19,011 nt of DNA from Deltaproteobacteria bacterium (GTDB lineage Bacteria > Desulfobacterota > UBA8473), in NCBI GenBank assembly GCA_030621455.1, contig JAUXHQ010000006.1, positions 1-19,011 of the forward strand. The letters are read 5' to 3'. Positions 3,332 through 17,874 of this stretch are shown one piece after another. Below the pieces are notes generated by a model. It worked only from the letters and a program-made list of their open reading frames with translations, was not told the DNA's origin and did not search any database. Position 1 is the stretch's first letter. Each line of letters opens with the position of its first letter. The translations under genes were made by a program, and so were the position numbers.

Positions 3332-3799
3332 TCAGCCGGCTGCGTTTCTTGCCTCAGTCCTTTTGACCAGACCGGATACGACTTTTCCCGAGATGTACAT
3401 TCCAAGGAACAGGAACGTCAGTACCACAAAAACCCCAATATACCTAAGGACAAGGGTCCCGATTATCCAAGTCCAGTTGTCCTTCACTATAGTAATGGTG
3501 GTTTCCTTCCCTGTTTTTTTTGATATGGTGATGGAATGCCAGGGTCGACTCCCATCGTCTTCAATATAGGTGGCATCTCTCCACTCACGATACTTGATGT
3601 CCTTAAAGCCCTCCAAAGCGCCCCTGTAAAATGTAACTACCTCATCATGAGATAAATTAACCTTCATTTCCAATCGGTCGCCGGTTTTTTTTGTAGTCCT
3701 TCCTTCATGGATAACGGGAACTCCTAAAAAATCTTCGGCAATCGAGTAAATCGGGAAAAACAACACTACAATCAAGATAAAAAGCACATAATTCTTCAT
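3332..3799 (-). CDS. Small exported membrane protein with OadG-like C-terminal helix
   Basis: The protein has 155 residues. It starts with a signal-peptide-like segment (MKNYVLFILIVVLFFPIYSIAEDF, with a likely cleavage after SIA), followed by about 90 polar residues with no motif I recognise. A single strong transmembrane helix (YIGVFVVLTFLFLGMYISG) comes near the end, followed by a short basic tail. The last part resembles the gamma subunit (OadG) of sodium-translocating decarboxylases, whose single helix anchors the complex. The neighbour 69 bp upstream encodes the beta subunit, which supports a gamma-like role. The long extracytoplasmic domain is not usual for OadG, so it may be a variant gamma subunit or an unrelated accessory. 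I chose the ATG at 3799 because GAAGGG lies six bases upstream; the frame also extends to a TTG at 3805. Confidence 0.65.
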   Translation of the reverse strand: MKNYVLFILIVVLFFPIYSIAEDFLGVPVIHEGRTTKKTGDRLEMKVNLSHDEVVTFYRGALEGFKDIKYREWRDATYIEDDGSRPWHSITISKKTGKETTITIVKDNWTWIIGTLVLRYIGVFVVLTFLFLGMYISGKVVSGLVKRTEARNAAG

Positions 3800-3874
3800 T
3801 CTCAACCCTTCATGTGATTTAGATATACGTTATGTATCACTTGATCTGAGGGTTTTCTCAAGGAAACCATACCC

Positions 3875-5017
3875 TCAGTCAAACATGGCAATAAACATTC
3901 CCGCTGCCGACGCTGAGCCTATAACGCCTGCGAGGTTCGGTCCTACCGCGTGCATCAGAAGGTGATTCGTCTTGTCATATTTTATACCTTCAGTCTGAGC
4001 AACCCGTGCTGCCATTGGGACTGCAGAAACCCCGGCTGCGCCAATAAGAGGATTGATCTTTTCTTTTAAGAACAGGTTCATAATCTTTACGGTCAAGATC
4101 CCACCTATGGTACAGACTACAAAATCTGCGAGGCCCAAACCGAAAATGAAAAGCGGCTTCCAGCTCAGGAATTTGTCCGCTTGCATTGTGGCCCCTACTG
4201 AAATGCCCAAGAGTATGGTAACAATATTCATGAGCGAACCCTGGGCTGTCTCTGTTAGTCTCTCCACAACACCGCTTTCTTTCATCAGATTGCCGAGCAT
4301 AAACATGCCCATCAAAGGGATGACACTAGGAACGAGGAGCGCAATTATGCCTGAAGTTATTAAGGGGAAAAGGATCTTCTCTCGCGTTGAAACTTGTCGC
4401 AACTGACGCATGCGGATACTTCTCTCCGCCTTAGAGGTCATGAGCCTCATAATAGGAGGTTGGATGAGAGGAACCATGGCCATGTACGAATAGGCTGCCA
4501 GCGCATTTGGCCCGAGGAGTTGGGGTGCAAGGTGCTGGGTTAAGTAAATGGTTGTTGGACCATCAGCGCCTCCAATAATGCTCACGGAGGCAGCTTCCTT
4601 GAGCGTGAAGCCAACCAGCACAGTGCCGGTAAAAGTGATGAAAACTCCTAACTGTGCGCCGGCGCCGATAAACAGGGTTTTAGGATTTGCGATAAGGGGA
4701 CCGAAATCGGTCATGGCCCCTAAACCCAAAAAGATAATGCAGGGCATAACCTCCCATTTGAGACCATAGTGGTAAAACACCTGGAGGAGTTGTGGGTGGT
4801 CATGAGAGTAGCCCATCAGGGGAACCAGGGGGAAGTTGACGATAAAGATTCCGAAACCGATGGGGAGAAGCAACAGTGGTTCATATTTTTTTACGATCGC
4901 GAGATATACAAAGAGACAGCCCACACCCCACATAATAAAGATCTTCCAATGAAGGTTATATAGCCCTGTCGTCTGAAGCGTGCTATACAACATATCCATA
5001 ATTTCATTGAGAGTCAT
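3875..5017 (-). CDS. oadB: Sodium ion-translocating decarboxylase, beta subunit
   Basis: This 380-residue polytopic inner-membrane protein belongs to the OadB/MmdB/GcdB family, which couples decarboxylation of a biotin-bound carboxyl group to sodium export. Family signatures are present: GGADGPT with the ion-site aspartate at residue 152, then GVSAVPMAARVAQ, and the C-terminal HAVGPNLAGVIGSASAAG. The length fits the shorter beta subunits of methylmalonyl-CoA or glutaconyl-CoA decarboxylases. The reading frame runs upstream to 5107, but AGGAGG four bases before the ATG at 5017 and the MTLNEIMDML start favour 5017. A putative gamma-like subunit follows. No carboxyltransferase or biotin-carrier gene is in the window, so the substrate (oxaloacetate, methylmalonyl-CoA or glutaconyl-CoA) cannot be assigned and the symbol denotes the family only. 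Confidence 0.93.
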   Translation of the reverse strand: MTLNEIMDMLYSTLQTTGLYNLHWKIFIMWGVGCLFVYLAIVKKYEPLLLLPIGFGIFIVNFPLVPLMGYSHDHPQLLQVFYHYGLKWEVMPCIIFLGLGAMTDFGPLIANPKTLFIGAGAQLGVFITFTGTVLVGFTLKEAASVSIIGGADGPTTIYLTQHLAPQLLGPNALAAYSYMAMVPLIQPPIMRLMTSKAERSIRMRQLRQVSTREKILFPLITSGIIALLVPSVIPLMGMFMLGNLMKESGVVERLTETAQGSLMNIVTILLGISVGATMQADKFLSWKPLFIFGLGLADFVVCTIGGILTVKIMNLFLKEKINPLIGAAGVSAVPMAARVAQTEGIKYDKTNHLLMHAVGPNLAGVIGSASAAGMFIAMFD

Positions 5018-5067
5018 GAAACCTCCTGTGTTGAAATGCATAAAAACTGCTAAATCGTTGAAAACTA

Positions 5068-5095
5068 ATGATATGCAAATAGAACTGTTTGTCAC
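5068..5095 (-). promoter_or_regulatory. Candidate proximal sigma-70 promoter of the oadB-type gene
   Basis: On the minus strand GTGACA (5090-5095) and TATCAT (5068-5073) are separated by 16 bases. Each matches five of six consensus positions. Transcription would begin about 45 bases before the ATG at 5017. Confidence 0.4.
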
Positions 5096-5119
5096 ACTTT
5101 TTTCCAAAATGAGTTTGTA

Positions 5120-5351: not shown

Positions 5352-5406
5352 AGATATTGGTAGTCTAGTGCCTAAATGGAGTCTTCATCAAGAAAGTCAC
5401 GAACCA

Positions 5407-5551
5407 AGTTTCCAATTCAGAAATGAGAAAAATTTTCTCTGAGTAAGGCCGCACGAGGGTTTTCGCCGAGGCGTACATTAGCGTACGTCGCAGGTGGAAA
5501 CCCGAGGAGAACGCAGCTCAGGGGGAAAAGGCCCATTTCTGGATGGAAACT
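5407..5551. repeat. Large imperfect palindrome (hairpin or MITE-like element)
   Basis: The left end AGTTTCCAATTCAGAAATGAG pairs with the right end CCCATTTCTGGATGGAAACT. Further in, TTTTCTCTGAG pairs with CTCAGGGGGAAAA, and CGAGGGTTTTCGCC with GGTGGAAACCCGAG. The centre is GGCGTACATTAGCGTACGTC. The symmetry is imperfect but continuous over about 145 bp, with no coding frame. It lies directly upstream of the SPFH operon promoter. It looks like a chromosomal repeat of the palindromic type, but only one copy is in the window. Confidence 0.6.
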
Positions 5552-5584
5552 AGTCTAAGATCGATATGGATGGGTCAAAATAGG

Positions 5585-5658: not shown

Positions 5659-7413
5659 ATGGCTGAACAATCAAACTCTGACAAGTTAAAAGGGCACGAT
5701 ATAAAGGTCAAGACCGCTACCGCGGTGATGGTAATGAATATCTTTCTGACCTGTATCAAGTTCCTGCTCTATTCATTTTCAGGCAGTATGGCAATACTGG
5801 CAGAAGCATGGCACAGCTTTAGTGACATTGCAACGAGCGGACTGGTCTTAATTGCTGTAAGAAGGTCAGCCATAGACTCACAGAAACATGACGAGAAATC
5901 TTCCGATGATCCCGCAGCTACCTCACAAAATGCCCCAAACAGAATGGAGATGCTCGTTTCTCTCGGTATCGGAATTCTGTTAACGATTGTAGCCGGGCTC
6001 CTTCTCAGAAAGTTTATTTATGCAGAATCGCTTACAATAAGAAATCCGCTGGTGTCAGGCATCCTCTTCTTGATATTTTCAACAGGTTCCTATTTCATCT
6101 ATTATTTTGAGACCCGTATTGGTGAAAAGGAGGGTTCCATCGGGCTTGTCACTGATGGGAGGCATGCAAAGGCGGATATGACGGCATCGCTTTTGACCGG
6201 CTTTTCCCTGATCGTTTATTCCATGGGCTTGAATCTTGATCGTTGGGTGGCTGGATTGATAGCCCTTTTCATCCTTTCTTTTGCCCTTGAAACATTTGTT
6301 AATGTAGCCACAATCTTTTTTCGCTGTCAATCAGAGTATCTTTTCAAGTACCGGTCTTTAACTATAATAGCATCCCTCTTTGACAGGATCGCCATGCAAC
6401 GGGCCGCAGAAAAAGCAGGCTCCCTTTTTGAAGCAAAATTCGGCAAAACAGAGAAAAGAAGAATTAAAGCAAAGGCCCTCATACTTTCCTTCCTCTTTCT
6501 CAGTATTGTTTATCTTTTTACGGCATTTTTTGCGGTTGGGGTTCGTGAGAAAGCTATTATTGAACGCTTCGGCAGACCTTTGAATGTAGACAGTCCGATT
6601 GGTCCCGGACTTCATAGCAAGCTGCCGTGGCCCGTGGATCGGGTAAAAAAAATAAAAACTACCTACATTGAAGAATTGAATATCGGCAATATTAGCGACA
6701 AACAGAACAGAGCCCTCATATGGTCAAGAAAGCACGGAACTGAGGAACCTTTCCTGAGCGGAGACAATAACTTTTTCTATCCTTACATCGTTCTACATTA
6801 TCGCATTAAAAATGTATTCCAGTATCTTTATGAAAATATAGATCCAAGAATGCTTGTTAATGAAGTGGGCCACCAGGTTGCCACGGCTCTTTTTGTTAAG
6901 GAAACCTTTTATGATATAGCAACAACACATCGAAAAAGGATAGAAGAGGAAATGCTGACACTGCTTCAAAGCAGCCTGGACAAACTTGAAAGCGGCATAG
7001 AACTGCTTTCTGTAAATTTCAAGGATATCCATCCTCCGATTTCAGTAGCAGATTCTTTCGAAAGGGTCATTGCAGGATACCAGGAGAAACAAAACATAAT
7101 AAATGATGCCTTAAGTTATAAAAACAACATAGTGCCGGAATCCCGCGGCAAGGCTATAAAAAAACTCGAGACAGCCAGAAGCTATATTATAGACCGAGAG
7201 AAAAGAGCGGAAGGTAAGGCAACACGCTTCAACCTCTCCCTGCCGGCATCCGGAATAGAAAAAGAAGTTGCCATGTATCGTATCCATCTCCAAACTCTTA
7301 AGGATGTCTTAAAAGAAAAAACAAAAATTGTTATCGACCCAACGGCAGGTGAGCCGGAAATATGGATGGATTTTGATAGTTTTGGTGCGATAGATTTGAA
7401 TGGAGGTGATTAG
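5659..7413 (+). CDS. Fusion: cation diffusion facilitator transporter + HflK-like SPFH protein
   Basis: This 584-residue protein joins two families. Residues 20-220 form a six-helix cation diffusion facilitator (CDF) transporter. Helix 2 carries H52-x3-D56 (EAWHSFSD) after SGSMAILAE, and helix 5 carries H169-x3-D173 (GRHAKADM). These are the four metal-site residues typical of zinc-type CDF antiporters. The usual cytoplasmic CDF C-terminal domain is missing. A basic linker (about 225-270) and a seventh helix (272-294) lead instead into an SPFH/Band-7 domain of the HflK kind (VREKAIIERFGRP, then GLHSKLPWPVDRVKKI) and a helical tail ending about 584. An in-frame TAG at 5653-5655 fixes the start at 5659. 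AGGAG is 17 bases upstream, unusually far. HflC- and HflK-like genes follow at once. Inference: a metal exporter scaffolded in an SPFH membrane assembly. Confidence 0.9.
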   Translation: MAEQSNSDKLKGHDIKVKTATAVMVMNIFLTCIKFLLYSFSGSMAILAEAWHSFSDIATSGLVLIAVRRSAIDSQKHDEKSSDDPAATSQNAPNRMEMLVSLGIGILLTIVAGLLLRKFIYAESLTIRNPLVSGILFLIFSTGSYFIYYFETRIGEKEGSIGLVTDGRHAKADMTASLLTGFSLIVYSMGLNLDRWVAGLIALFILSFALETFVNVATIFFRCQSEYLFKYRSLTIIASLFDRIAMQRAAEKAGSLFEAKFGKTEKRRIKAKALILSFLFLSIVYLFTAFFAVGVREKAIIERFGRPLNVDSPIGPGLHSKLPWPVDRVKKIKTTYIEELNIGNISDKQNRALIWSRKHGTEEPFLSGDNNFFYPYIVLHYRIKNVFQYLYENIDPRMLVNEVGHQVATALFVKETFYDIATTHRKRIEEEMLTLLQSSLDKLESGIELLSVNFKDIHPPISVADSFERVIAGYQEKQNIINDALSYKNNIVPESRGKAIKKLETARSYIIDREKRAEGKATRFNLSLPASGIEKEVAMYRIHLQTLKDVLKEKTKIVIDPTAGEPEIWMDFDSFGAIDLNGGD

Positions 7414-7415
7414 AA

Positions 7416-8312
7416 ATGAGATATTTCTTCATCATTTGTGCGACAGTTGCATCCCTTCTGTTGCTCGTGTGTATTAGCAGCTTTACAGTATCGAAAAGGG
7501 AATATGTGATTTTAACACAGTTTGGCAAGCCAACCGATACCATTAAAACTGCCGGTTTCAACTGGAAGCGTCCGGGTTTTCTTGAGACCGTAAACCGGAT
7601 AGACCGCCGCACTCACTCATTTACGATTCAACCTATTCAGCTTTTACTCGGAGACAAAAATCCTATTGTTCTTACATTCTATGTTTGCTGGCGTGTACAT
7701 GACCCCCTTCTCTTCTTTCAGTCACTGATAAATACTGAAAACGCTACCCAGAAGCTGGGGGACATGATTAATTCACAGCTAGGCAACGCCTTGGGTGATT
7801 TTAAGCTAAGCAATGTCATTAATACAAATCCTACTGAGGTAAAGCTCGCCGCTCTCGAGAGCCGTATTTTAAGAAACACTGATACGAGTGCACAGGATAA
7901 GTACGGGATTGAAGTAGTCCAGGTAGGAATACGCAGAATTGCCTATCCAACCATTGTGGCCGATGCCGTTTACAACCGGATGCGCTCCGAAAGAGAAAAG
8001 GAGGCCATGAAGTTCAGAGCAGAGGGACGTGAGGAGGCAACCAAAATCAAGGCTAAAGCCGACCGTGAAGTAACAGAGATACTTGCCGAGGCATACAAAC
8101 AGGCCGAAATTCTGAAGGGGGAAGGCGATCAAAAAGCCCTCAAAATCTATTCTGAGGCCTATTGCCGGGATAATGAATTTTTTGAGTTCATTAAATCAAT
8201 GGAAGCATACAAAGACATTCTAAGCCAAAAAAGTACGCTTGTCCTGTCTACGGACTCGTATATTTTCAAGTATCTCAATAACTTATACGGACATAAAAAG
8301 GATGGGCATTGA
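7416..8312 (+). CDS. HflC-like SPFH membrane protein
   Basis: The protein has 298 residues. An N-terminal membrane helix (about 3-21, IICATVASLLLLVCISSF) is followed by an SPFH domain beginning VSKREYVILTQFGKP. A charged coiled-coil at about 188-245 (REKEAMKFRAEGREEATKIK and following) leads to the HflC-type tail SMEAYKDILSQKSTLVLSTDSYIF, a motif family that ends in a short helix and strand. Classical HflC forms, with HflK, a ring on the periplasmic face that encloses the FtsH protease. Here no ftsH is nearby, and the gene starts two bases after the stop of the CDF-SPFH fusion, so its partner is probably that protein and the HflK-like product encoded next. GGAGG lies just upstream of the ATG. 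Confidence 0.88.
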   Translation: MRYFFIICATVASLLLLVCISSFTVSKREYVILTQFGKPTDTIKTAGFNWKRPGFLETVNRIDRRTHSFTIQPIQLLLGDKNPIVLTFYVCWRVHDPLLFFQSLINTENATQKLGDMINSQLGNALGDFKLSNVINTNPTEVKLAALESRILRNTDTSAQDKYGIEVVQVGIRRIAYPTIVADAVYNRMRSEREKEAMKFRAEGREEATKIKAKADREVTEILAEAYKQAEILKGEGDQKALKIYSEAYCRDNEFFEFIKSMEAYKDILSQKSTLVLSTDSYIFKYLNNLYGHKKDGH

Positions 8313-8322
8313 AGGGAACAGA

Positions 8323-9291
8323 ATGCGGCAAACCTTTATAGAGGCCTATGTTCATCTAATATCTTTTCTGCGTTGGATTATTGTATGCTTGGTCATACTC
8401 TACCTTTGCTCTGGTATTTATGCCGTTTCTTCCAATGAGATAGGCATCTTGCAACGATTCGGAAAGGTTCTGAATGACAAAATTCAGCCAGGAATTCACT
8501 TTGCGTTTCCTTGGCCCATCGACCGGGTAACCAAAGTGCCGACACGAATTGTTAACAGAATGGTGATAGATGATTTTTATTCCGCTTATTCAAGTCTGAA
8601 TTCGACTTCAAGGGCCTTCGTCGAAATGACCGGGCTCGATTCATACTGTGTGACAGGTGACAATAATCTTGTCAATATAATATGCGTTATTCAATATAAC
8701 ATCTCCAATCCCTTTGATTATATTTTTCATGTGAAAGACACAGATATTATGCTGCGCAGCATGGCTGCCAACACTATTATCCGCTGCCTGGCCAGGATGC
8801 CGATTGGCGATTCCTTGACCCGCGGCAAGCAGCAGATTTCAAGCTATATTAAAGTTGAGCTTCAAAAAAGGCTGGATGATGCCCGTAGCGGTCTGAATCT
8901 CTCGTTTATTGAGCTGCGCGACATTAAACCGCCGGATCGAATACAGAATTTCTTCTCCGATGTAGTAAAAGCCGGTATCGACCGTATTAAAATGATCAAT
9001 GGGGCTGAGGCATACCGGAATGAAAAAATACCAGCGGCCAAAGCGGATGCAAATCGGATCTTGCAGGAAGCAGAAGGATATAAGCGAGGTGTGGTTTTAC
9101 GAGCCGAAGGTGATGCAGATCGGTTTACACGTCTTCTTGATCAGAATCGTGGGAAGGGTGATTCTATCAGGAAAATGATCTATATCGAAACTATGCAGGA
9201 GATTATGAAGAAGGTCGAAAAAAAGCGCATCGTAGTTCTAGATAAAAACAGCAAGGTCCCTGCCCGATTAAAACTTTACTGCCCGCCATAA
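8323..9291 (+). CDS. HflK-like SPFH membrane protein
   Basis: This 322-residue protein has a transmembrane helix at about 14-34 (FLRWIIVCLVILYLCSG), then an SPFH domain starting SSNEIGILQRFGKV with the HflK signature FPWPIDRVTKVPTR. A coiled-coil-forming helix follows (AEGYKRGVVLRAEGDADRF) and a C-terminal strand with RIVVLD. The frame is open from 8239. The ATG at 8323 is preferred because GAAGGG stands six bases before it; an ATG at 8302 would overlap the upstream stop at 8310-8312. It is the second HflK-type protein of the operon, after the CDF fusion. A 2:1 or alternating assembly with the HflC-like partner is possible. It ends at a stem-loop shared with the convergent MFS gene. Confidence 0.87.
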   Translation: MRQTFIEAYVHLISFLRWIIVCLVILYLCSGIYAVSSNEIGILQRFGKVLNDKIQPGIHFAFPWPIDRVTKVPTRIVNRMVIDDFYSAYSSLNSTSRAFVEMTGLDSYCVTGDNNLVNIICVIQYNISNPFDYIFHVKDTDIMLRSMAANTIIRCLARMPIGDSLTRGKQQISSYIKVELQKRLDDARSGLNLSFIELRDIKPPDRIQNFFSDVVKAGIDRIKMINGAEAYRNEKIPAAKADANRILQEAEGYKRGVVLRAEGDADRFTRLLDQNRGKGDSIRKMIYIETMQEIMKKVEKKRIVVLDKNSKVPARLKLYCPP

Positions 9292-12529: not shown

Positions 12530-13699
12530 CTAATACAAGAACATGGGCTTGCCAACAACATGACGGACCCTGGGTCTATACTCGTTTACATCATAGAGTT
12601 CTCGGATATCTACCCTTTTTTGGCCCGTGGTAATGGTGCTTAGGGGAATATCTGTGTATATTCCCCTGTTCAGTGCAATAAGGCGCCCAAAAGCACCCTT
12701 TTGGAAAAGGTCTACAGCCATATTGGCAAAATTAACAGCAACCATCAAATCGAGGGAGTCAGGCGTTCCACTCCGCATTAGGTAGGAAAGCCGCTGATTG
12801 AGCACATCCTCTCCTGTGAGTTCCTTCAGAACGGCCCCGGTTTCCTCCCCGACCCCCCCCAATCTTCTATGACCGTAGGCATCGGATTCTCCGAAGAGAA
12901 ACATGTCACCCCCTACCATCTTTGCCCCTTCCGAAATAGTGATCATGGCATAATTCTTGGGATTGGCCCTTTTATCTTTCATGATGAGCCCTGCCAACCT
13001 CTTTGGATCAAAGGGAACTTCGGGGATAAGGGCACGCTCCACGCCCGCCAGATATGCGGCTATCAGGGATGTTTCACCACAATACCTGCCAAATAGCTCA
13101 ATAACGGCGATTCTCTCATGTGAACCGGTAGAGGTTCTCAATGAATGTATAAAACTGACACTTCTGGCAACGGCTGTGGAAAAACCGATGCAATAGTCTG
13201 TTCCAAAGACGTCATTATCCATTGTCTTGGGGATGGCAATTACAGCAAATCCTTCCCTGCTTAACCTCTCCGCAAAACTGAGGGTATCATCGCCCCCAAT
13301 GGGAATAATGGCGTCGATTTTAAGGTGCTCCAGATTCTTCAAGACATGGTCTGTGAAATCTTGTTTCCCTTTCTTGAACGCTTCCTTCAAAAAATCCGGT
13401 ACATCCTTCTCTCTCACAGCACTGGGATTGGTTCGAGATGTGTGTAGATATGTGCCTCCGGAACGGTCTATGGTTCTTACTTCTGCTGTTTCCAGTTCCT
13501 GGATACACCTGATCGTTGTTCCTGGATCATCCGGGTTGTACTCTAGAATACCGGCCCAGCCCCTTCTAATTCCTATGACTTTAATGCCTTCAAAACGCGC
13601 ACGATAAACCAGGGTCTTAATGCAGGGATTAAGCCCCGGCACATCTCCACCACCTGTAAGTATGGCTATTGTTGACCCTCTCTTGCTCTTTTCTTCCAT
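12530..13699 (-). CDS. 6-phosphofructokinase, probably pyrophosphate-dependent
   Basis: This 389-residue glycolytic enzyme phosphorylates fructose 6-phosphate. The phosphoryl-donor loop starts [13 protein letters not shown]. The catalytic region has GGDDT with D137-D138 and PKTMDND with K158. The spacing of 20 between D138 and K158 equals that between Gly104 and Gly124 of the E. coli ATP enzyme, and Asp plus Lys at these places is the established mark of pyrophosphate-type enzymes. The substrate region [18 protein letters not shown] is intact. Two earlier starts (GTG 13720, ATG 13714) are in frame. I prefer the ATG at 13699, which has GGAG nine bases upstream. It converges with the decarboxylase gene across 13 bp. 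A reversible pyrophosphate enzyme would serve both glycolysis and gluconeogenesis, useful in an energy-limited anaerobe. Confidence 0.92.
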
Positions 13700-14091
13700 C
13701 TGTGTGGTCTCCATAAACACTTATTTTGTGGCTTCGCAATACTTCCAATGTCCAGCAGACATAACGCAGCATGAAAATATTGATTGTTTCCATATAAACT
13801 CTTGGTAATTTACTGTTGCCCCTAAAGGGGCGCTTGGATTCTCGCTGACCGTACCCCGACACTTTGTGAAGACACAATTATTAAAAAGAATACCATATTG
13901 ACACTTGGAATGTAAAAGGTTTTATGATGTTCTCTGTAATGCGAGTCATGGATACCCGTTCAAGTGACACGGGACACCACCTCCTTCTTGCTCACGAGCT
14001 TACATAGTGCCCGCCCATTAATGCATTCTTGAGAAAGTGTGCAGGAGAAAGTTTCCATGCAGTGGCTTTTTTAAGAGGCTACATAATTGAG
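13700..14091. other. Divergent intergenic region between phosphofructokinase and the radical SAM operon
   Basis: About 390 bp without a convincing gene. It contains a small GC hairpin (GCCCC TAAA GGGGC, 13818-13831) without a T-tract. A plus-strand TTGACA (13898-13903) and TATGAT (13923-13928) have a suboptimal 19-base spacer and could be a second promoter or start a short RNA. I could not find a well-formed minus-strand promoter for the phosphofructokinase gene. Confidence 0.4.
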
Positions 14092-15436: not shown

Positions 15437-15982
15437 ATGAGTAAAGATGCCTTGATCATAGTAGATATGCAGAATGATTTTTGTGAAGGGGGTCCTCTAG
15501 AGGTACCCGGGGCCATGGAGATTATACCGATAATCAATCGGTTGATCGACAAACTCGAACTGGTCATAGCTACTCAAGACTACCATCCCCCCAATCACTG
15601 CAGCTTTGTAAGTCAATGGCCGGTTCATTGTGTAGCCGGAACTGAGGGGGCGGAACTCAATAAAGGCCTTAAGACGGACAGGATAAAACATTTTGTGCGG
15701 AAGGGCACATCGAAAGATAAGGAGGCCTACAGCGGTTTCCAGGGAACGGAACTCTCGACCATCTTAGACTCGAAGGGGATAGAGACTATATATCTCTGTG
15801 GATTGGCCACGGATGTCTGTGTGAAGGCCACGGCTCTTGACGGCTTGAGCAAAGGATTTAGGGTAATCGTTATCTCAGATGCGGTAAGAGGTGTGACAAA
15901 AGAGACCGGGGAAGCGGCCATTGAGGAGATGAAGCGTGAAGGTGTTGAATTCACGGAAAGCGGTTCTCTGGAGGGTGAATGA
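15437..15982 (+). CDS. pncA: Nicotinamidase (isochorismatase-like amidohydrolase)
   Basis: This 181-residue cytosolic enzyme should deamidate nicotinamide to nicotinate for NAD salvage. The catalytic triad is visible: D10 (ALIIVDMQNDF), K89 (FVRKG) and the nucleophile C128 (GLATDVCVKATA). Metal ligands D48, H50 and H54 (TQDYHPPNHCSF) mark the nicotinamidase branch rather than isochorismatase. GGAGGG stands ten bases before the ATG. Its stop overlaps the archease start by four bases (ATGA at 15979-15982), implying translational coupling. It lies 69 bp after the radical SAM gene. Confidence 0.92.
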   Translation: MSKDALIIVDMQNDFCEGGPLEVPGAMEIIPIINRLIDKLELVIATQDYHPPNHCSFVSQWPVHCVAGTEGAELNKGLKTDRIKHFVRKGTSKDKEAYSGFQGTELSTILDSKGIETIYLCGLATDVCVKATALDGLSKGFRVIVISDAVRGVTKETGEAAIEEMKREGVEFTESGSLEGE

Positions 15983-16395
15983 AGAAGTACGAGCTTATAG
16001 ATCACACTGCAGACCTCGGGTTGGAAATCTATGGCAAGGATCTGAAGGAACTCTTTGAGAACGCCGGAGAAGCATTATTTGAAATAATCTGTGACCTGTC
16101 CCAAGTGGCGGAGTCAATGAAGAAACGAGTGGTTGTGGATGGAGAGGACCTGGAACAATTAATGGTAACCTGGCTGGGAGAACTCTTGTATCTACATGAT
16201 GTGGAGGGATCGCTCTTCAAACGTTTCGAGATCGAAGAGATAGGAAGTAAAAGTCTCAAAGCGACTGTTTATGGCGAAAAATTTAAGGAAGGTCATCATA
16301 CCATAAAAACAGAGATAAAGGCTGTTACCTATCATCAGATTCAGGTAAGAGAAGAAGAAGATAGATGGACATCGAGGGTAATACTTGATCTTTGA
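15979..16395 (+). CDS. Archease, RtcB RNA ligase activator
   Basis: This 138-residue protein has the archease pattern. The N-terminal YELIDHTADLGLEIYG supplies the metal-binding Asp residues (D8, D12), ELLYLHDVEG lies in the middle, VTYHQIQV is the conserved His strand, and the chain ends in the acidic tail ILDL. Archease speeds guanylylation and turnover of RtcB and broadens its nucleotide use. The gene overlaps pncA and ends 15 bases before rtcB, exactly the partnership expected. Confidence 0.95.
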   Translation: MKKYELIDHTADLGLEIYGKDLKELFENAGEALFEIICDLSQVAESMKKRVVVDGEDLEQLMVTWLGELLYLHDVEGSLFKRFEIEEIGSKSLKATVYGEKFKEGHHTIKTEIKAVTYHQIQVREEEDRWTSRVILDL

Positions 16396-16410
16396 GAGAA
16401 GGCCATAGAT

Positions 16411-17874
16411 ATGAATCAAAAAAACTCTACACATTCCATAGAGATTGAGAAGATAGATGACTACCGGTGGAGGATACCTAAGACCGGCAAAATGAAGACG
16501 GACGGAATCATCTATGCTGACGAGAAGATGTTGGAAGACATAAGGAACGACCAGAGTCTTCTCCAGGTGACCAATGTAGCATGGCTTCCCGGGATAGTGG
16601 GTCATTCCCTGGCAATGCCGGATATCCATTGGGGCTACGGGTTTCCAATCGGAGGTGTTGCCGCCTTCGATCTAAAGGAAGGTGTAGTTTCCCCAGGGGG
16701 CGTGGGATACGACATCAACTGCGGTGTCAGACTGATGCGCTCAGGACTGACTCGCAGTGATATTGAGGACAAGATAGGCGCTCTTGTTGATACCCTCTTT
16801 ATCAACATCCCGTCCGGGGTGGGGGGCCATCGTAAGGATTTGAAGCTGAACAGGGAAAAGGAAAAGAGGGTCTTATTAAATGGAGCTGAGTGGGCTGTAA
16901 ATCAGGGGTATGGCACAGAAGAAGATTTAGAGCATATCGAGGAGAGGGGATGCCTACAGAATGCAGACCCCAGTCTCGTTTCCGAAAAGGCTCTGAGGAG
17001 GGGCGCGGCTCAACTGGGAACCCTTGGCTCCGGAAACCACTTCGTTGAAATAGGTTTTGTTTCGGATATCTATGATCAGGAATTGGCAAAAGCACTGGGG
17101 CTTGAGGAGGACCAGGTGACAATCATGGTCCATACCGGGTCCAGGGGGTTGGGGCACCAGGTCTGTGATGATTATATAAGGGTTATGCTGCAATCTTCTG
17201 CCAAGTATGGCATTGAACTTCCCGACAAACAGCTATGCTGTGCCCCCGTGGACTCTGAAGAGGGAAGGAGGTATCTGGGGGCTATGGCCTGCGCCGCCAA
17301 TTATGCCTTCGCCAACCGCCAGGTAATAACCCATTGGGTCAGAGAGACTATGGAGCAAGTAATGAAGATAGGGCCTAAGGACCTCCAGCTTGACCTGATA
17401 TACGACGTGTGTCATAACATAGCCAAGATTGAGGAACACGTTGTTCATGGAAAAAAAAAGAAGCTCTGTGTCCACAGAAAGGGAGCCACGCGGGCCTTTC
17501 CACCGCATCATCCGGATGTTCCCGGAGACTATCGATTGGCAGGCCAACCAGTACTGATCCCGGGTGATATGGGAAGGTATTCCTATGTCATGGTGGGAAC
17601 CGAACGTGCTTTTAAGGAGACTTTTGGCAGCACATGCCATGGGGCGGGCAGGGTGATGAGTAGGCGTAAAGCAGTAAAAGCCGCCAAAGGCAGGGCCATT
17701 GTCAGAGAATTGAAAGACAGGGGGATAACGGTTCGCTCAGCCGGGAAGACCACCATTGCAGAAGAGATGCCAGAGGCATATAAGGATGTAACTGACGTTG
17801 TAAATGTAGTTCATAATGCAGGTATCGGCCGGAAGGTAGCGCGGATCAGGCCGATGGGTCTAATCAAGGGTTAG
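16411..17874 (+). CDS. rtcB: RtcB, 3'-phosphate/5'-hydroxyl RNA ligase
   Basis: This 487-residue GTP- and manganese-dependent ligase seals RNA ends left by cleavage during tRNA splicing or toxin and stress damage. All key elements are present: GGVGYDINCGVRL with metal ligand C104, GSGNHFVEI, the histidine in VHTGSRGLGHQV, and the guanylylated histidine H410 in STCHGAGRVMSRR. The length is the family norm. The start ATG at 16411 follows GAGAGAAGG in the intergenic gap, and archease is immediately upstream. In E. coli rtcB is controlled by the sigma-54 activator RtcR. Here the operon has a sigma-70-type promoter and no RtcR is adjacent, suggesting constitutive repair. Confidence 0.97.
   Translation: MNQKNSTHSIEIEKIDDYRWRIPKTGKMKTDGIIYADEKMLEDIRNDQSLLQVTNVAWLPGIVGHSLAMPDIHWGYGFPIGGVAAFDLKEGVVSPGGVGYDINCGVRLMRSGLTRSDIEDKIGALVDTLFINIPSGVGGHRKDLKLNREKEKRVLLNGAEWAVNQGYGTEEDLEHIEERGCLQNADPSLVSEKALRRGAAQLGTLGSGNHFVEIGFVSDIYDQELAKALGLEEDQVTIMVHTGSRGLGHQVCDDYIRVMLQSSAKYGIELPDKQLCCAPVDSEEGRRYLGAMACAANYAFANRQVITHWVRETMEQVMKIGPKDLQLDLIYDVCHNIAKIEEHVVHGKKKKLCVHRKGATRAFPPHHPDVPGDYRLAGQPVLIPGDMGRYSYVMVGTERAFKETFGSTCHGAGRVMSRRKAVKAAKGRAIVRELKDRGITVRSAGKTTIAEEMPEAYKDVTDVVNVVHNAGIGRKVARIRPMGLIKG

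Follow-up and report, generated by a model that had tools for sequence, protein, structure and literature searches.

A metal transporter fused to an HflK-like subunit heads a three-gene SPFH cassette and suggests a metal-handling chamber at the bacterial inner membrane

Why would a metal transporter be built into the same polypeptide as a subunit of an SPFH dome? The question is raised by a gene at positions 5659..7413 (+) of the 19,011-nucleotide stretch of DNA analysed here (the window; features lie on the + strand unless marked otherwise). This gene encodes a 584-residue CDF-HflK fusion, which we call K1, recognised from its open reading frame, Pfam domains, a structure model and fold matches. 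In K1 the likely content of a dome is fused to one of the dome's own subunits and, unlike that of most SPFH domes, can be read directly from the genome: a metal transporter. Together with two dome genes, the fusion suggests a built-in metal-handling chamber just outside the inner membrane.

An earlier note on this DNA had given the coordinates, the frame and both domains of the gene, and all were correct (Pfam, ORF). The CDF transmembrane core occupies residues 22–216 (5722..6306), where Pfam Cation_efflux scores 67.4 bits against a cut-off of 26.6. As the note had claimed, this core is complete, and the alignments place intact metal ligands in TM2 (H52xxxD56, 5812..5826) and TM5 (H169xxxD173, 6163..6177). 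The SPFH domain, in the same stop-free frame, is marked by a Band_7 match at residues 293–481 (6535..7101; 47 bits, cut-off 23.6) and contains a WxxxH signature at W355–H359 (6721..6735; WSRKH in the window). In the structure model, six long helices are followed by two short ones (232–240 and 243–261), a membrane helix (residues 265–287, 6451..6519) and an SPFH fold. The match to HflK in the fold comparison spans residues 272–562, making the membrane helix the counterpart of the HflK anchor; both halves of K1 and the seventh helix that the note had described are backed by fold matches. Loop charges give modest support for the topology, the stretch past TM7 being likewise positively charged, and by this topology we infer that the SPFH domain is periplasmic. 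A cytoplasmic dimerisation domain is usual in CDFs but not universal, some CDFs having none. The note had reported it missing from K1, and a Pfam scan found no PF16916 match there at E ≤ 0.1. The scores of K1 against two NCBIfam models were under their cut-offs: 66.5 bits (cut-off 82.35) for TIGR01297, the CDF superfamily, and 140.4 bits (cut-off 159.4) for TIGR01933, the HflK equivalog.

The earlier note had proposed a search for the same domain pairing in homologues, and had held that separately encoded halves or unconserved ligands would count against its reading. A protein search returned 415 relatives of K1 at E ≤ 1e-3. Among these, 118 of the 120 listed (query included) contain both Pfam domains, the other two (P0094 and P0101) having Band_7 alone. 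A frame or assembly error behind the fusion is therefore very unlikely. In the 120-row alignment H52 is present in 118 rows, D56 in 117, H169 in 119 and D173 in 119; the other rows have gaps and none has a substitution. A second alignment of 121 rows, which took in seven divergent members, gave H52, H169 and D173 in all rows and D56 in 120 (one gap). HxxxD in TM5 is reported for Zn- and Fe/Zn-CDFs but not for Mn-CDFs, and a histidine in TM2 for Zn-CDFs as well as for the MMT- and WmFieF-like clusters (PMC1868760). Given HxxxD in both TM2 and TM5, a quartet that points to Zn-CDFs and some Fe/Zn-CDFs rather than Mn-CDFs, the substrate of K1 is likely to be Zn2+ or Fe2+. The note's author had known of no characterised protein with this architecture. 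Our literature search, thin on subscription journals, likewise found no paper on a CDF–SPFH fusion or on a transporter–SPFH cassette; the architecture itself, however, is widespread in databases, where it goes by names like 'protease modulator HflK family protein'.

Two SPFH genes, missed in the earlier note, lie directly after the fusion. The first (7416..8312), 2 nt past K1, encodes a 298-residue HflC-like subunit, C, which scores 185.4 bits against the HflC equivalog model TIGR01932 (cut-off 134.4). The second (8302..9291) overlaps C by 11 nt and encodes K2, an HflK-like subunit of 329 residues counted from the ATG at 8302; its TIGR01933 score of 193 bits (cut-off 159.4) was computed from the TTG at 8239 given in the ORF list. 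Band_7 matches in C and K2 (90.7 and 71 bits), like that in K1, exceed the Pfam cut-off. All 21 loci (the window, L007–L016, L037–L040, L062 and L071–L075) have their genes in the order K1-C-K2. A contig end cuts the first gene of L062, so the CDF half of that K1 is unseen, and the third gene of L016 is cut.

The records of L007–L016 are named as Thermodesulfobacteriota, Desulfobacteraceae, Desulfobacterales, Deltaproteobacteria, Planctomycetota, Spirochaetales, Muiribacteriota or simply 'bacterium', and the spread of the cassette across the sampled genomes is patchy. With the centre genome counted in each case, the alignment, searched at E ≤ 1e-75, matched 9 of the 395 genomes sampled from the window's phylum, 2 of 343 from the planctomycete genome's phylum, 1 of 198 from the Spirochaetales genome's phylum and 7 of 85 from the order of G251. 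With the protein as query, a previous sample of the window's phylum, which overlaps the larger one, had given full-length matches in 8 of 297 genomes. A conjugative plasmid of Aquibium oceanicum encodes a 515-residue protein that combines the two domains and has HxxxD in TM2 as well as TM5; after it come HflC-like, HflK-like, PPIase, heavy-metal P-type ATPase, PCu(A)C, SCO and DsbB genes; this K1 and that of L010 are without the WxxxH. Plasmids also came up in a separate observation: matches to the HflC-like subunit (<60% identity) occur in 615 plasmid records, 415 of them from Escherichia and 513 predicted to be conjugative.

A tree of 94 SPFH domains splits the cassettes into lineage A (15 loci, including the window) and lineage B (6 loci). 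The K1, C and K2 domains of lineage A each form their own supported group outside canonical HflK/HflC (100/98, 98/90 and 100/98, respectively), and lineage B lies nearer the canonical proteins. The window's C passes the HflC equivalog cut-off yet falls outside the canonical HflC group, and the window's genome also encodes a separate canonical HflK–HflC pair (G000:C61). The CDF domains of lineages A and B group together against 18 other CDFs with a support of 89/84, which is not decisive. Cassettes of both lineages occur in G251 (L037 and L040), and G300 contains two of lineage A (L012 and L062).

A sister type of three-SPFH cassette is accompanied by a metal P-type ATPase in all seven loci opened, of the Zn/Cd-type subfamily in 4 of 4 tested. 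The C subunit there has a His-rich N-terminal tail in five of six plasmid loci (L107 9228–10265, L108 9232–10296, L110 8251–9270, L112 8263–9273 and L113 8275–9270), with 7–12 histidines within the first 40 residues; some of the ATPases also bear His-rich N-terminal tails. The C subunit of a planctomycete ATPase-linked cassette (L063) is without such a tail; its genome, G297, also contains one CDF cassette (L013). The first gene of the ATPase-linked cassette gives a CDF-like model with no conserved HxxxD pair. The window's cassette shares with this type the K1-C-K2 order and the WxxxH of K1; it has no P-type ATPase as a fourth gene, and an MFS gene lies downstream on the opposite strand. In the trees, the K1 SPFH domains from lineage A, lineage B and the ATPase-linked type did not come together as one group.

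In Pseudomonas aeruginosa, PA2434–PA2439 comprise the P-type ATPase HmtA and three genes of the HflC/HflK family; they are reported as upregulated on zinc depletion, with a weak putative Zur site (PMC4542158). Proteomics is described as agreeing with this response, with statistical significance for some of the proteins (PMC11761036). According to a further report, Zur fully binds the PA2439 promoter only with zinc, and added zinc did not repress hmtA (PMC8531726). In strain PA14, the three SPFH genes PaFlo5–7 are predicted to form a single operon, and their deletion is described as giving 'subtle' phenotypes, including less biofilm and attenuation in Galleria (PMC13086221). From gene order and names alone, PaFlo5–7 are probably PA2437–PA2439 and of the ATPase-linked type.

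The genes beside the CDF cassettes also bear on function. Gene order and Pfam domains place a calcineurin-like phosphoesterase gene (PF00149) next to the cassette in 9 of the 20 loci with flanks (L009, L011, L014, L037, L038, L039, L062, L072 and L073), the other 11, the window among them, having no such adjoining gene. The L062 copy runs into the contig end, so that its PF00149 domain is incomplete and scores below the cut-off, while its MetallophosN domain scores above. The neighbouring phosphoesterases have signal-like N-termini by eye, and GNH is present in 10 of 11 and GHxH in 8 of 11; these are the usual metal motifs of such enzymes. A search of 19 genomes placed PF00149 no more than 1 kb from the cassette in 8 of them against 0.12 expected (nominal P = 1.4e-13), and in 4 of 15 groups against 0.10 expected once close kin are merged (nominal P = 2.2e-6), both P-values being post hoc because the association was first spotted in part of the same loci. 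The expectations for 5-kb flanks are 0.42 (genomes) and 0.34 (kin-merged groups). Among the six loci fetched later (L062 and L071–L075), three have the gene, two of these being kin of L039. FeoB lies near four cassettes (L007, L009, L011 and L075), and a DtxR-type regulator, DUF1007 and NicO genes lie beside two (L007 and L075). Upstream genes in two further loci encode a cyclase-family protein (L071) and a transglutaminase-like protein (L074). None of PF00149, FeoB, NicO or DtxR was found by Pfam among the 16 window genes scanned. The surroundings of the window's cassette are OAD-beta, a 157-aa protein without a hit, a sigma-54 activator, a Nitro_FeMo-Co protein, a response regulator and the MFS transporter, with TPP enzyme, PFK, radical SAM, isochorismatase, archease, RtcB and PHP genes farther downstream.

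Several known systems share parts of this arrangement. K1 has in common with YiiP/FieF and the ZnT (SLC30) proteins the six-helix core, the fold match and the TM2/TM5 ligand pairs. It differs from them in having no detectable C-terminal dimerisation domain, a TM helix and SPFH domain following the core instead. The E. coli HflK/HflC–FtsH dome likewise has HflK-like and HflC-like subunits with an SPFH domain and a long helix, but the cassette has three genes rather than two and its first subunit bears a transporter. PA2439–PA2437 with hmtA and the ATPase-linked cassettes, which have the WxxxH seen in the window's K1, also combine three clustered SPFH genes with a metal transporter; there, in contrast, transporter and SPFH subunit are different proteins, the transporter being a P-type ATPase, and the likeness to Pseudomonas comes from gene order and names. 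Stomatin domes are reported to enclose AQP1 and UT-B (PMC12407830), and so resemble the proposed complex in surrounding a transport protein, which is separate there and fused in K1. ZnT5–ZnT6 and ZnT7 are CDFs described as loading alkaline phosphatase in the secretory pathway with metal (PMC3799634); the likeness to K1 would be functional and is hypothetical, since they belong to a eukaryotic pathway and the account given there describes no SPFH dome. Both protein families, and domes around transporters, are thus already known; the mechanism given for K1 is a proposal.

We propose that K1, C and K2 act as one inner-membrane complex, and a complex shared by the three subunits is highly probable. 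Judging by family and fold, the HflC-like and HflK-like subunits would assemble, like HflK/HflC, into an SPFH dome on the periplasmic side. K1 would anchor CDF transporters in the membrane patch beneath it, because in sequence and model the CDF core precedes an HflK-type anchor helix and SPFH domain in a single chain. Known CDFs transport metal out of the cytoplasm. Export of Zn2+ or Fe2+ by the CDF part would thus release metal into the dome-enclosed space, and it is probable that K1 does move metal into the dome. The likeliest purpose, more speculatively, would be to keep the exported metal local and to pass it to exported metalloenzymes such as the neighbouring metallophosphoesterases, although allocation to exported enzymes is somewhat doubtful. 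The model as a whole, one inner-membrane complex for metal allocation rather than bulk detoxification, we regard as evenly balanced. The conservation of all three subunits and the metal genes that recur near relatives agree with a metal-exporting microdomain, as the earlier note had suggested.

Alternatively, the dome might merely cluster or stabilise an exporter in a membrane patch, the cassette conferring metal resistance. CDFs are usually exporters, the NicO, DUF1007 and DtxR genes of L007 and L075 would suit this role, and the fusion is the only CDF at E ≤ 1e-6 in three genomes (G071, G342 and the window's own G000, which is 78% complete). However, plain efflux would leave unexplained both the phosphoesterases as direct neighbours and the response to zinc starvation seen at the similar locus in Pseudomonas, and we consider it unlikely. 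That response, together with the description of HmtA as an importer, fits scavenging better than export, and the dome could hold scarce metal at the outer mouth of an inward transporter, as suggested for HmtA. The behaviour of PA2434–PA2439 under zinc depletion, the binding of Zur to the PA2439 promoter with zinc present and the FeoB importers near four CDF cassettes all favour such capture; the outward transport of known CDFs and the reported failure of zinc to repress hmtA make it decidedly improbable for K1. The earlier note had also raised metal control of membrane proteolysis, in which the CDF part would sense metal and an HflKC-like dome relay the signal to FtsH. The cassette subunits are homologous to HflK/HflC, the assemblies of which are reported to surround FtsH (PMC12048511), but the idea gained no specific support: the genome keeps its separate canonical pair, from which the cassette subunits stand apart in the tree, and we judge it highly improbable. 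The earlier interpretation as a whole is partly supported.

We tentatively extend the metal-allocation model to a metalation chamber, a reading that we rate as less likely than not: exported metallophosphoesterases and other enzymes would be loaded with Zn2+ or Fe2+ that CDF exporters release into the periplasmic space enclosed by the dome, as a prokaryotic counterpart of ZnT5–6/ZnT7; in the sister cassette the CDF would have decayed to a scaffold, with the P-type ATPase supplying the metal. The cassette makes it testable whether SPFH domes serve as membrane compartments for transporters, and how bacteria supply exported enzymes with metal while keeping it from escaping into the medium. It could also account for the three HflK/HflC-like genes in the zinc-responsive Pseudomonas cluster.

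Some further features of these loci were noted. A Nitro_FeMo-Co gene lies ∼4 kb upstream of the window's cassette (1271–1609, −) and another directly downstream of the L013 cassette (13627–13965). In a third case (L088 1477–2661) the domain is fused after the dimerisation domain of a CDF, the one with the highest score among standalone CDFs against the CDF profile of the fusion. An ARMT1-like phosphatase gene is immediately 5′ of the planctomycete cassette (L013 8944–9825). In the window, the 157-aa membrane protein adjoins the gene for a Na+-transporting decarboxylase beta subunit (3332–5107, −) and might be its gamma-like partner. The archease and RtcB genes adjoin each other at 15979–17874; the P. 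aeruginosa SPFH gene PaFlo8 is reported in an rtc locus (PMC13086221), perhaps a chance coincidence. Finally, a 149-nt near-perfect palindrome at 5405–5553, 105 bp upstream of K1 (z = −8.2 for a 156-nt fold), has 29 matches in its own genome including itself, several of them full-length at ∼90%, and is a MITE-like dispersed repeat.
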